From NCBI RefSeq assembly GCF_030013905.1, contig NZ_CP124862.1, positions 2,669,051 to 2,733,050 on the forward strand: a DNA stretch of 64,000 nt, written 5' to 3'. The notes below the pieces were generated by a model, which was not told the DNA's origin, ran no database searches, and worked only from the letters and a program-made list of their open reading frames with translations. This document shows positions 7,507-16,118 of the stretch, piece by piece (the stretch's first letter is position 1; every line of letters starts with the position of its first letter). The DNA comes from Petroclostridium sp. X23. GTDB taxonomy: Bacteria > Bacillota > Clostridia > SK-Y3. A program made the position numbers and the translations under genes.

Positions 7507-9504
7507 TTAACTACCCATCCCCAACTGAGCCAATAGTGAATTTGTTTGGTTATTCAACTGGTTCATTGCTGTTTCCAGATTCGCATACTTTTTATATAGA
7601 CTGTCTTCCTTGCTATAGTAATTATCCCACATTAAATCCATGCGTTTTTCATAACCTAATATTTCATTATAGATCATATTATTAGTATAAGAACGATCTG
7701 CCTGAATTCCGGCTTTCTCAAGGAGTACCCCTTTACGCCCGCCACTATCGCTAAAAGTGGATATATTATCTTCAATAATATCGTATAACCGTTGGAACAA
7801 TCCCTCTTCATCGTATCGAATTTCCCTCTGTTCCTGTGATAACGTCCTATAATAAGCAGGTTCACTTGATGACTTCTGGCTGAATAAATTCATTACAGCA
7901 TCCGAATCATTCTGTATTGCATTTTTAAGCTTGGTTTCATCGATATTCAGCTTACCCTTCTCTGTATAAACCCCGGTAGTGATGCCAATACTGGTCAGAT
8001 TTATATTTACACCTTCAATAGGATCAAAAAGCGCCCTTCTCATATCCATTACGATTTTTTCTAAAATAGCATCATTTCTTAATAGACCCGTCTTTGCCTG
8101 TTCCTCCCAATTCTCTATTTCTTTTTCGCTCATGGCCTCTTTCTGCTCATCTGTAAGAGGGACATAATTGCGATCATATTTTTCCGATAGCCTGTTATTA
8201 ATGGTCGTTATCATCTCATTATACTTTTCTACGAACTTCTGAATATTTTCATAAATACCGTCTACATCCAAATCTACAGTAACATTTTGAATTGTATCTA
8301 CTTCTGTATCTTTCGGATCTCGCAGCAATGTATAGGTAAGATCATTTACGCTTAAAGAATTTGTGCTTCGGGTAATCTCCTGCTCATCAATCAGTGCCTT
8401 CGCATCCTTACCATAGGTCACCCCGTCTACATCACCGCTGTTTGGTATGACATTGTTTACTGAGATAGCACTTACAAAATTATATCCCGGATCTTCTTCA
8501 TTAATTATAATTGCCCCTGCGGCACCGGTCTCTTTAGAGGCTATTACAAAATGATCGGTGGTTTCATCATATCTCATGGTCACATTGGCAGTTTCATCGC
8601 CATTAATGGTGCTCATCATGTTGCTTAGAGACGTTGTTCTATCAAACTCAAAGGTTTTATTATTAATGGTAAATTTGAGCTTATCATTTTCATCAAATTT
8701 CCATGCAGTTTTCATTTTTGGTACAATGTTCTCTAAGGAATCATAGATATTAATACGGTTACTGGTACCTGGCGTAATTCTCAATATGCTTGTCGCATCT
8801 TTTGTCTCGGAACTACCGCTATATATTGATAGTTTTGTAGCTCCACTTACGGTAGAAAATTTAATCTTATCATCTGTTCCCACTTGTAGTACCTCAATTT
8901 TATCTGCTCCAAAGGCTTCATTAATTAGTTTTTGAAGTCCCTTCTTTGCAGGATCGCCTCCTCCGGTTATCAGGTCATCTGTCGTTGAATAGTCGGCATC
9001 AAAAGTGATCTCTTTTGTAACACCATCCAATGTAAGTGTTATACTTTTACCTTTAAGCTTCGCTGATGATAAATTCATATCTCGCGTACTAATCAGTTCC
9101 TGGGTAACATTTTCAGTGCTTTGTGCTTGCGCTGCTGAAGCCCTCTGCAGCACTTTAACACTATGGCTGCCCGACATCGCATTTACCGTGCCACTGACAG
9201 AAACTAATGTACTGGTTTGTCCTGTAGCGCTATCCACAGTAGAAGCCGTATATTTTTTATAATTGGATTGAGACAGCATATTGGTTGATGGTTTCAAAAC
9301 ATCCATATACTCGCTTTTAATCCCTCTTAATAGGTTGGTAACCTCTCTGTATTGATCACGTTTCCACTCGGCAACTTGTTTTTTTTGTGATACGACATCA
9401 ATACGCATTCTCTCAATACTGAGGGTATTTTTGATAATCGAATCAGTATCCAGTCCTGTAGCCAGTCCTGTCAACCTCATACTGTTAATCCGCGAAATCG
9501 TCAT
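7507..9504 (-). CDS. fliD: Flagellar cap protein FliD (HAP2) with an inserted module
   Basis: The 665-residue filament cap protein has the FliD_N motif (RLTGLATGLDTDSIIKNTLSIERMRID, residues 10-36), a helical D1 (to about 95), and the FliD_C region in the last ~250 residues (YEKMDLMWDNYYSKEDSLYKKY-like end with a Tyr/Asn-rich coiled coil and terminal LLAQLGMG). Residues ~149-243 form a beta-rich module (SITLTLDGVTKEITFDADY, LINEAFGADKIEV, IKFSTVSGATKLSIYSG) that resembles modules in this locus's flagellin and FlgL. FliD is longer than many (450-550). AAGGAGTGG precedes the ATG. A sigma-D-type promoter lies about 90 bp upstream. Confidence 0.95.
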   Translation of the reverse strand: MTISRINSMRLTGLATGLDTDSIIKNTLSIERMRIDVVSQKKQVAEWKRDQYREVTNLLRGIKSEYMDVLKPSTNMLSQSNYKKYTASTVDSATGQTSTLVSVSGTVNAMSGSHSVKVLQRASAAQAQSTENVTQELISTRDMNLSSAKLKGKSITLTLDGVTKEITFDADYSTTDDLITGGGDPAKKGLQKLINEAFGADKIEVLQVGTDDKIKFSTVSGATKLSIYSGSSETKDATSILRITPGTSNRINIYDSLENIVPKMKTAWKFDENDKLKFTINNKTFEFDRTTSLSNMMSTINGDETANVTMRYDETTDHFVIASKETGAAGAIIINEEDPGYNFVSAISVNNVIPNSGDVDGVTYGKDAKALIDEQEITRSTNSLSVNDLTYTLLRDPKDTEVDTIQNVTVDLDVDGIYENIQKFVEKYNEMITTINNRLSEKYDRNYVPLTDEQKEAMSEKEIENWEEQAKTGLLRNDAILEKIVMDMRRALFDPIEGVNINLTSIGITTGVYTEKGKLNIDETKLKNAIQNDSDAVMNLFSQKSSSEPAYYRTLSQEQREIRYDEEGLFQRLYDIIEDNISTFSDSGGRKGVLLEKAGIQADRSYTNNMIYNEILGYEKRMDLMWDNYYSKEDSLYKKYANLETAMNQLNNQTNSLLAQLGMGS

Positions 9505-9622: not shown

Positions 9623-9712
9623 TATACTAATAATATATTTCAGAATTTTATTATCAAAATTAAAGAAAAGATCCTTCTTAGGATCTTTCATTTATTCTAA
9701 ACAAGCATCTTT

Positions 9713-9940
9713 CTAAGACAATAGGATACTTTCACCGTTTAGAAGCCTCACCTGCTCTTCAAGGTCTTTCAACTGCTCATTAATCTTTTTGGTTTCTTCA
9801 ACAGATAGATCTTGATTAATTACTTTTTGAGCTAACTCTCTCATTTTAATAATACTATTATAGGTAGTAACTCCTAGCTTTGGTTGTATTATATCACATT
9901 GGTCATTATATGCTATAGACACTATTGTTTTGAATTGCAA
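9713..9940 (-). CDS. Small protein resembling the D1 helix of flagellin/FlgL
   Basis: The frame encodes 75 residues. From residue 28 it reads SIIKMRELAQKVINQDLSVEETKKINEQLKDLEEQVRLL, which lines up with flagellin 83-124 (MRELAVQSAS, then IQKELDQLKSEVDRI) and even better with FlgL (RELTVKASNGVLSVDDTLKI). Nothing else of flagellin is present. Its C-terminal 40 residues also match the 77-residue gene at 10731. The start is doubtful: 9940 is a TTG without a ribosome site, and an ATG at residue 33 lacks one too, so this may be a remnant with a broken 5' end. No function is known to me for such a protein. Confidence 0.45.
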   Translation of the reverse strand: MQFKTIVSIAYNDQCDIIQPKLGVTTYNSIIKMRELAQKVINQDLSVEETKKINEQLKDLEEQVRLLNGESILLS

Positions 9941-9981
9941 TAAGTTAATATATGTTAAGTGTCCGTGAAATCTATTCTTTA

Positions 9982-10605
9982 CTATTCCTGCTCATCTACC
10001 TCTGGAAGAACCCCAACAAATCTAGCCAGTGATATAACCGTCATAATAATTCCAGAAATCACCTCAAGAACTGCAATACTATGTAAGATACTAAATGTAT
10101 CTCCAAAATCTGATACAAGCTCACTATATTGAAAGGTAGCCATGCACAGGAAATTCTTTACTACATACTCTAGCCATGATCTAGACATAGGCTGATTTGC
10201 AATGGCAATGATCGAAATAATCACAGCACTATACCAAAATATAACTTCTATATAGTTATGAAGAAGAGCTAATACCATCCTCCGAATAGATTTTATCTTA
10301 TATTCTTTACCAATTTTCCAAGATCGATAAGAATCAAACAGCAGAACATTGATTTGATAGATAATTACTTCAAAAACCCGAATACTTCCGTAAAATATAA
10401 CCAGGAACATCAATTCAGGAACCGATTTTCCTATTCTGAACACCAAATAGGAGCTAACAATAGATCCTATCAGATTGCCTAAAACCCATCCATCCACAAA
10501 AGTATGGGTAATCTCTTTTTTAAAAGCGTTTTTTATAATGCTACATACGAGACTAAACATGGATACTTGCCTTAAAAAGCCAAATATAGATTCCCAAAAA
10601 TCCAT
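9982..10605 (-). CDS. Unrecognised membrane protein with channel-like architecture
   Basis: The 207-residue product has four or five hydrophobic segments (IGSIVSSYLVFRIG, ELMFLVIFYGSIRVFEVIIYQI, YIEVIFWYSAVIISIIAIA and a last IAVLEVISGIIMTVISLARF). Between the last two lies a polar re-entrant-looking stretch with FQYSELVSDFGDTF, which recalls the pore loop of two-TM potassium channels but has no TVGYG filter. I do not recognise the family. The ATG at 10605 follows AGAAGG; an ATG at 10641 behind GGGGG is an alternative. It lies between the two flagellin-D1-like small genes in an accessory island between fliC and fliD, so a motility link is only positional. Confidence 0.6.
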   Translation of the reverse strand: MDFWESIFGFLRQVSMFSLVCSIIKNAFKKEITHTFVDGWVLGNLIGSIVSSYLVFRIGKSVPELMFLVIFYGSIRVFEVIIYQINVLLFDSYRSWKIGKEYKIKSIRRMVLALLHNYIEVIFWYSAVIISIIAIANQPMSRSWLEYVVKNFLCMATFQYSELVSDFGDTFSILHSIAVLEVISGIIMTVISLARFVGVLPEVDEQE

Positions 10606-10730
10606 CAAAAATCCTTCTGATTTTCCTCTCAGTTTTTCCATATATTTTGTATACCCCCGATAATTTCCCAACGCAATACTGTCTACATGCGTAGGATCTT
10701 TGGCAGGTTTTGAAATAGAAATACTTTTCC

Positions 10731-10964
10731 CTAGGACAACTTAGTACTCTCACTGTCCAGTAGTCTCACCTGCTCTTCTAGGTCTTTCACGTTTTTGTCG
10801 ATCTTTTGCATTTCTTCATCAGTCACGTTTTCATTTGCTACCCACTGAGCTAGTCCTTTCATTTGAAGGAGTTTCTCTTCGATCATATCAAGGATTTGCA
10901 ATCGTTGTTTCACTCGCTCCAACTGTTCTTGTAGCTCTTTCTTCGCATGCTCTTGTTCTTTCAT
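10731..10964 (-). CDS. Small coiled-coil protein resembling the flagellin D1 helix
   Basis: The 77-residue protein is highly charged and fully helical (KEQEHAKKELQEQLERVKQR, then MKGLAQWVANENVTDEEMQKI and KDLEEQVRLLDSE). Residues ~33-70 match the 75-residue frame at 9713 and the flagellin/FlgL D1 helix pattern (M-x2-LA-x10-EE-x-x-KI-x7-L-x3-V-x-LL). The N-terminal third is an extra coiled coil. A weak GAGATGATG precedes the ATG. It follows the YjfB-like gene by 21 bp, so the two are probably co-transcribed. Unlike the frame at 9713 it has an ordinary start and looks intact. Function unknown. Confidence 0.65.
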   Translation of the reverse strand: MKEQEHAKKELQEQLERVKQRLQILDMIEEKLLQMKGLAQWVANENVTDEEMQKIDKNVKDLEEQVRLLDSESTKLS

Positions 10965-10985: not shown

Positions 10986-11183
10986 CTACAGTCGAACATC
11001 TATATTTTTTCCAAGGTAAGGGGTGACAGATTGATCCATTATCTTAGTATTGTGCTGTACCATTTGTACCATATCATTCATTTGTATTTTTCCTGCATCC
11101 ATTACCATCTTCATGACTGAAATGCTTGCTTGCTGGGCTACTTTCATTTGGCTTAGTCCCATTGATAATGCTGCTATATCCAT
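10986..11183 (-). CDS. YjfB-family putative motility protein
   Basis: The 65-residue protein matches the YjfB_motility family: MDIAALSMGLSQMKVAQQASISVMKMVMDAG at the start and the terminal TPYLGKNIDVRL. AAAGGAGG gives a strong start. The family is found near flagellar genes in Bacillota but has no established function. Its last residues GKN-I-D-V-R-L are almost the same as the end of the DUF6470 protein in this cluster (GKN-V-D-I-R-L). Confidence 0.85.
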   Translation of the reverse strand: MDIAALSMGLSQMKVAQQASISVMKMVMDAGKIQMNDMVQMVQHNTKIMDQSVTPYLGKNIDVRL

Positions 11184-11201: not shown

Positions 11202-11567
11202 CTATGATAATATTAGAGGTTTCATGATTTCTCCCAGTTCGTCTTTCCAGTTCTTGAAAGTTGGTTCTAATGTAAACTGCATGATTTCATAAACTTTTTG
11301 TCGATTTGTGCTTTCGTATTCTTTTACCATGATGTCAAAAGCTGTGCTTAGTTTTCCAGCTTTCTCTATTATCTTATTCTCAGGTAGTTTTTCTAGCATT
11401 GAAGATATGCTTTTTTCTATTTCTATAAAGGCAGATGTTAAATCTGTAAGAACAGTTATAGTTCCTTCTATATTAAGTTCTTCTAGTTTTTGTTTTACAT
11501 AGTCCATTCCCTCTTCCATAGTTTCTAAAAGGTCTAATATTTGTGCTATGACTTCTTGATTTGGCAT
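11202..11567 (-). CDS. Uncharacterised helical protein of the flagellar locus
   Basis: The protein has 121 residues from the ATG at 11567, which AGGTG precedes; an earlier in-frame start at 11642 lies in AT-rich leader. It is acidic and helical (AQILDLLETMEEGMDYVKQKLEELNIEGTI, AFIEIEKSISSMLEKLPEN, YEIMQFTLEPTFKNWKDELG). It resembles short proteins of clostridial flagellar regions, possibly those now grouped as DUF8042, but I cannot confirm this. It is the first gene after the flagellin terminator and starts a set of three or four small genes before fliD. It may bind a flagellar subunit; that is inference from location and size only. Confidence 0.6.
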   Translation of the reverse strand: MPNQEVIAQILDLLETMEEGMDYVKQKLEELNIEGTITVLTDLTSAFIEIEKSISSMLEKLPENKIIEKAGKLSTAFDIMVKEYESTNRQKVYEIMQFTLEPTFKNWKDELGEIMKPLILS

Positions 11568-11680
11568 ATTATCACCTACTTTCTTAATTTCGTTATATAT
11601 TCTGTATTTTAAAATCTTTAATAACAACTTTATACCTAACATAAGAATACAACACTATTCTTCCTTACCTATAAAGTATG

Positions 11681-15563: not shown

Positions 15564-16118
15564 CTACAACCTGATATCAACATTCTTGCCTGCATATTTA
15601 AATTGAATGGATGCTTCTTGTTCCAGATATATATTTATTTCAGGACGTGAAGCTTGTATATCTACCTGACCCGGCTGATAATCGTATTGAACTGCACCGG
15701 GTTGGTAGTTAAACTTTATATCTCCTGTCACTTCTATTTTAGGTCTGCTTTTAGGTATAAACCCAATGTTAAATTGTTTTTCCGGATACGCGTCGCGTAC
15801 CGCCATGTTCGGAATAGGGTTACTGCCGTTTTCTATTGATGCCAGCGTATGTCCGTCTGCGACCGTTTTAGAAATATATTGCATCACCTGCTGTGATGCC
15901 AACTGAGATGCTTCCTTCAAAAGATCCATATTGTTCTTTAATCCAGCTTCCGCGAAACACTGATACTGGTCTATCTGCACTTTAGGAAGCTCTGACTCTA
16001 TCTCAACTTTAGCATTCTCTTGGCGTATATCTAATCTAGGAGGTGTTGATTTCATATTAAGCTGTGTATTTTTTGTTTCAATCCCTATTCGTGCATAGGT
16101 CTGGGTTATCTGCAGCAT
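15564..16118 (-). CDS. DUF6470 family flagellar protein (YviE-like)
   Basis: The 184-residue protein matches the YviE/DUF6470 family: it starts LQITQTYARIGIETKN, repeats short beta units (PPRLDIRQENAKVEIE; PGAVQYDYQPGQVDIQASRPEINI) and ends KYAGKNVDIRL. The family is encoded next to flgL and fliW in Bacillota; its job is unknown. The end is shared with YjfB-family proteins. GGGAGG precedes the ATG. It overlaps none of its neighbours and is 12 bp after flgL, in the same operon. Confidence 0.85.
   Translation of the reverse strand: MLQITQTYARIGIETKNTQLNMKSTPPRLDIRQENAKVEIESELPKVQIDQYQCFAEAGLKNNMDLLKEASQLASQQVMQYISKTVADGHTLASIENGSNPIPNMAVRDAYPEKQFNIGFIPKSRPKIEVTGDIKFNYQPGAVQYDYQPGQVDIQASRPEINIYLEQEASIQFKYAGKNVDIRL

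Follow-up and report, generated by a model that had tools for sequence, protein, structure and literature searches.

A conserved small-protein family of Bacillota resembling the flagellin D1-N hairpin, with a probable truncated second copy at one flagellar locus

A 77-aa gene in the flagellar locus of Petroclostridium sp. X23 is, to judge from its sequence, an intact and functional member of a conserved family of small proteins, here called HP. The family is new: it is unannotated and is not covered by Pfam or NCBIfam. The protein reads as a stand-alone copy of the D1-N helical hairpin of flagellin (the end of helix ND1a, the turn and helix ND1b) with an N-terminal helical extension of its own. 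A neighbouring 75-aa frame is probably what remains of a second, truncated HP copy and is unlikely to encode a functional protein.

The window analysed is a 64 000-nucleotide stretch of contig NZ_CP124862.1. The gene order on its minus strand is fliW-csrA-fliC-(146 aa)-yjfB-HP-(229 aa)-HP relic, followed on the 3' side of the relic by fliD and then by a FliT-like gene, flaG and fliS (Table 1). Both small frames are present on this strand, at 9713-9940 (75 aa, TTG start) and 10731-10964 (77 aa, ATG start). The yjfB gene lies directly upstream of the HP gene with a gap of 21 nt. Pfam gave no match for the 229-aa protein, and neither Pfam nor NCBIfam gave a family for the 146-aa protein beside fliC. 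Relatives of the latter were seen beside flagellin genes at loci L087, L104, L114, L164-L166 and L169, and it appears to represent another unannotated flagellin-locus family. YjfB ends in GKNIDVRL and a DUF6470-like protein encoded near fliW (15564-16118, minus strand) ends in GKNVDIRL; a C-terminal motif is thus common to two otherwise different flagellar proteins.

Table 1. Features of the flagellar locus (window coordinates).
Feature	Position	Strand	Remarks
fliD, filament cap	7507-9504	-	Sequence reading
Intrinsic terminator after HP relic	9666-9689	-	
HP relic, 3' half of second HP copy	9713-9844	-	43 codons + stop; hmmsearch 41-45 bits
Non-homologous 5' part of 75-aa frame	9845-9940	-	TTG probably not a real gene start
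Probable membrane protein, 229 aa	9982-10671	-	Between HP gene and HP relic
HP, 77-aa D1-hairpin protein, intact family member	10731-10964	-	Predicted helices 2-44 and 49-75
YjfB-type putative motility protein	10986-11183	-	PF14070, E = 1.4e-20
Small flagellin-locus protein, 146 aa, helical	11202-11642	-	Likely start MPNQ at 11567
Flagellin fliC, 915 aa	11738-14485	-	D1-N hairpin, residues ~77-124, is the part resembled by HP

Pfam and NCBIfam searches with the 77-aa protein returned no family, and a limited literature search gave neither a description of the HP family nor a paper on a flagellin-D1 helical-hairpin chaperone. An orthologue with 75% identity occupies the same place in Geosporobacter subterraneus DSM 17957, 23 nt after yjfB. 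A single-sequence scan with HP found relatives at four loci. Related clostridia, named in an earlier note on this DNA as a place to look, do carry the gene: besides G. subterraneus, the profile search placed members in 45 of the 207 genomes of one clostridial family (the search reported 46, but the match in genome G188, E = 9e-4, is to a flagellin and is not counted here). Nine further Bacillota genomes of other families were added by a phylum-wide profile search. The 77-aa protein matched the profile over the whole hairpin, with the conserved residues R21, L25, K31, L32, M35, L62 and E72, and was predicted by AF2 (six sequences) as a confident two-helix hairpin (mean pLDDT 94.4). Relative to the G. 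subterraneus orthologue dN is about 0.12-0.14 and synonymous sites are saturated; the gene appears to be under purifying selection. This selection and the wide spread of the family led us to reject the earlier suggestion of a remnant of a lost axial gene as far as the 77-aa gene is concerned. HP is accessory, since it is missing from most flagellated genomes of the clostridial family (131 of 176). Broken copies were seen elsewhere too, for example at loci L082 and L091.

The earlier note had described both frames as resembling only the D1 helix of flagellin and FlgL. Taken singly, the window proteins gave little: BLASTP against the window flagellin was not significant (E = 0.18 and 0.62), and single-protein comparisons with Pfam, NCBIfam and BLAST gave weak coiled-coil matches only. 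The D1-only resemblance was borne out by family profiles. A six-member HP profile, built without any flagellin input, was run on 391 genomes (E <= 0.01), and 13 of its 18 non-family matches were flagellin or FlgL, at the D1-N hairpin, the remaining five being unrelated proteins. The reversed profile, run as a control, gave ten matches, none of them to flagellin or FlgL. In the phylum-wide search, made with a larger profile and mostly on other genomes than the 391, 19 of the 20 weaker matches with fetched loci were flagellins, most of them matching at profile positions ~25-70; the twentieth was another small protein (93 aa) with the same pattern.

Profile-profile comparison was carried out with hhalign using reference flagellins that had not been selected by the HP profile. 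The alignment was ungapped (HP 26-69 to FliC 81-124) with a score of 34.1, against a maximum of 21.7 in 300 column shuffles preserving the hydrophobic pattern and 19.0 for the reversed profile. With a 23-member alignment the score rose to 41.7 (shuffle maximum 23.0) and the aligned region became HP 22-69 to FliC 77-124, so that the similarity is better than that of a random coiled coil. The first ten matches of a wider profile in a PDB profile search were all flagellins (best E = 2e-5), and Flagellin_N was the Pfam family matched most often (10 of the 23 HP members, best E 1e-4). PF00669 gave 15.1 and 13.3 bits for two HP members, which does not reach the curated cut-off of 26.6 bits, and no match to the window 77-aa protein. 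The likeness claimed for both axial proteins appears in the profile hits but is stronger for flagellin: FlgL scored 22-25 in hhalign compared with 34-42 for flagellin (only 6 FlgL sequences were in the alignment), and one of 300 shuffles reached 22.2 in the FlgL comparison.

That HP could be an unrelated coiled-coil hairpin, its likeness to flagellin being convergent and without functional meaning, was considered. Hairpins converge easily, the single window proteins lack a significant flagellin match, and a Foldseek search of the PDB with the HP hairpin brought up assorted helical hairpins, none of them at E <= 0.001, a mixture that is therefore uninformative on HP ancestry. This explanation is nonetheless very improbable, as the signal is lost in reversed and shuffled profiles, natural coiled coils seldom rival flagellin among the matches from whole genomes, and the HP genes stand in a flagellar context. 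Common descent of HP and the flagellin D1-N segment is likely from the profile evidence; a similar picture would result if HP had converged on the surface of D1-N.

The two window frames share KDLEEQVRLL and LA-x10-EE-x2-KI, as had been noticed earlier. They are not equivalent genes, however: the 77-aa gene is an intact member of a conserved family, whereas the homology of the 75-aa frame is limited to its last 43 codons (9716-9844), the first ~30 codons being unrelated. In a search of the whole genome of the organism (5.5 Mb, one contig) the similarity covered residues 30-77 of the longer protein with 50% identity (E = 3e-8), and the DNA of the two copies is 74% identical over 94 nt. The 75-aa frame fell outside the family as defined by the HP profile, the region of R21 and L25 being absent. 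No recognisable start or ribosome-binding site for the relic was seen on reading the sequence, and promoter-like matches in the 5' region of the frame occurred at chance frequency. In G. subterraneus, which has a single HP gene, a hairpin resembling the terminator at 9689-9666 comes after that gene, and part of the terminator stem remains 3' of the intact HP gene in the window. The remnant reading of the earlier note thus holds for this frame, its origin lying in the HP family and not in an axial gene.

The synonymous difference between the two window copies is 0.71, compared with 0.68 between species, and a recent tandem duplication was rejected on this ground. Since synonymous change is high and non-synonymous change of the 75-aa frame is low (0.23 relative to P0002 and 0.165 relative to G. 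subterraneus), the relic was probably under constraint during most of its existence and became truncated only at a late stage. In the simplest history, we infer, an old second HP copy lost its 5' half when a rearrangement introduced the 229-aa gene. The 229-aa protein has a relative (E = 7e-47) encoded in the HP-bearing flagellar island of another genome (locus L091). In G. subterraneus (L024, 6704-7448) the interval from HP to flaG holds a nucleotidyltransferase/HEPN-like pair of genes in place of the 229-aa gene of the window. This site is possibly an insertion hot spot.

Gene context was collected for 55 HP copies, 46 of them unfused and nine fused to YjfB. Recognised flagellar genes were found within 8 kb of 40 of the 55 copies. 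The yjfB gene stands directly upstream of 24 of the 46 unfused copies, at distances from -10 to +48 nt, and in the fusions, found at nine loci, the YjfB part comes first; in one pair of fusions the hairpin half is strongly constrained (dN/dS about 0.08) and the YjfB half far less so (about 0.7). Flagellin is present in every one of the 45 HP genomes of the clostridial family, and YjfB in 43. Among flagellated genomes of this family YjfB is present in 43 and absent from two of those with HP, compared with 71 and 60 of those without HP (odds ratio 18, p = 6e-8, kinship ignored). At locus L169 (3275-17301) three tandem fliC-small orf-yjfB-HP cassettes were found, the third with a truncated flagellin; this is an amplification of the whole cassette in which HP was co-duplicated with flagellin. 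The flagellar link proposed from the position of the small frames therefore stands, on a context conserved across many families, the fusion to YjfB and the co-duplication with flagellin. Homing-endonuclease-like repeated ORFs were seen opposite HP genes in clostridial islands (L025 3718-4578, L026 6431-6967 and L031 990-1898).

We hold tentatively, with somewhat less than even confidence, that HP is a D1-N mimic handling flagellin or FliS. HP would stay in the cytoplasm, since it has no D0 ends, and would work together with YjfB, handling flagellin before export by offering the D1-N surface in trans. Its target would be either newly synthesized flagellin, at the D1-C helix, or the chaperone FliS, at the site where D1 docks, and HP would thereby tune how a given flagellin folds, whether it assembles too early, or how it is exported. 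The natural partner of the D1-N hairpin is flagellin's own D1-C helix. For a small D1 mimic as a kind we know of one precedent, HP1076. This H. pylori protein resembles flagellin D1, binds FliS at the site of D1 and competes with flagellin, and a strain lacking hp1076 was not impaired in motility (PMC7248283). FliS of B. subtilis contacts the flagellin D1 core, and the flagellin segments contacted or protected by FliS, FliW and FlhA are given in the cited part of that study as residue 57, 50-72 and 61-72 (PMC6070490). The segments named there lie mostly outside the stretch mimicked by HP (~77-124), and binding to D1-C is for this reason as likely as binding to FliS. By analogy, the earlier picture of a decoy or chaperone-like mimic is plausible. 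A wider proposal, in which YjfB and HP would form a widespread two-part system acting on flagellin folding or export in trans, each copy matched to the neighbouring flagellin, is more doubtful.

The surroundings of the gene also suggest a helper in flagellin modification, presenting or recognizing D1 and so directing the glycosyltransferases of the island to the correct flagellin ahead of export. Glycosylation-type genes (glycosyltransferase or nonulosonic-acid type) lie within 8 kb of 27 of the 55 copies, and some HP genes directly follow a TPR-bearing glycosyltransferase. Many clostridial copies are situated between fliD/fliC and flgB, that is, in the hypervariable flagellar region described for Clostridium in a paper whose main text does not contain YjfB (PMC13317340). 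We consider this role unlikely: in the window, in G. subterraneus and at most deep-branching loci HP stands beside fliC and no glycosylation gene is recognised in its vicinity, and flagellin and YjfB are the neighbours conserved best. Flagellin modification sites, moreover, are usually in the outer domains and not in D1.

A decoy acting on the FliW-CsrA switch, in which HP would bind FliW and free CsrA to repress flagellin translation, appears improbable. It would fit the position of fliW-csrA just upstream of fliC-yjfB-HP at several loci and the extra csrA genes found directly before HP-linked second flagellin genes (L085, L089, L097 and L099). FliW protects the N-terminal flagellin segments 11-34 and 50-72 in the cited part of the study (PMC6070490), but the HP-like segment aligns to residues ~77-124, outside the FliW sites mapped there.

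Export of HP, with YjfB, as a kind of mini-flagellin forming a minor component of the axial structure or of a junction, is quite unlikely. The resemblance to the D1-N hairpin and the coding of these small ORFs among late flagellar genes would agree with it, and in the YjfB-HP fusion the hairpin is preceded by a segment predicted to be helical, much as D1-N is preceded by D0-N in flagellin. HP nevertheless lacks D0-N, D1-C and D0-C, all of which are required for filament packing; the lack of D0 ends had been pointed out in the earlier note and is confirmed. YjfB as a hidden D0-N segment was rejected, its alignment having no detectable profile relation to flagellin N-termini (hhalign 9.1, probability 0.1). 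The AF2 model of YjfB was poor (pLDDT 59).

The HP family amounts to a piece of flagellin encoded as a gene of its own. The two-part system, if correct, would supply the uncharacterised YjfB family with both a role and a partner. YjfB, a conserved flagellar protein that has no assigned function, was called "an uncharacterized small protein" in a 2024 paper (PMC11607428). It is tied to HP by adjacency, fusion and co-occurrence, and through this link its role becomes testable.

Among known systems, flagellin (PF00669) is the closest to HP. The ungapped alignment takes in the last part of ND1a, the turn and ND1b, and both have the core L-x2-M-[RK]-x-L-A. HP is not a flagellin, because D0 and D1-C are absent: its 77 residues begin in helix 1 and end after helix 2. 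It has its own conserved start of helix 1 (ELqWVkYR..mLDiiE.KL) and stays below the curated Pfam cut-off wherever a score was listed. FlgL, whose D1 is among the non-family matches of the HP profile, is a weaker relative; HP has neither its D0 nor its C-terminal parts. No HP match was listed for the Pfam and NCBIfam models of the flagellar chaperones FlgN and FliT. YjfB_motility (PF14070), encoded by the adjacent gene or forming the N-terminal part of the fusions and found in the same genomes (43 of 45), is a separate family, HP matching neither this model nor the YjfB profile. HP1076 (PF16522) is a small helical protein that sets the precedent for a D1 mimic with FliS binding (PMC7248283). 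It is a possible structural analogue only, as there is no significant sequence relation (one of 11 HP members at E = 0.048) and HP is predicted to be a two-helix hairpin. HP1076 is described as restricted to H. pylori and its relatives (PMC7248283), whereas HP is found in Bacillota, and the comparison suggests by analogy that mimicry of flagellin D1 by small proteins may exist in Bacillota too.
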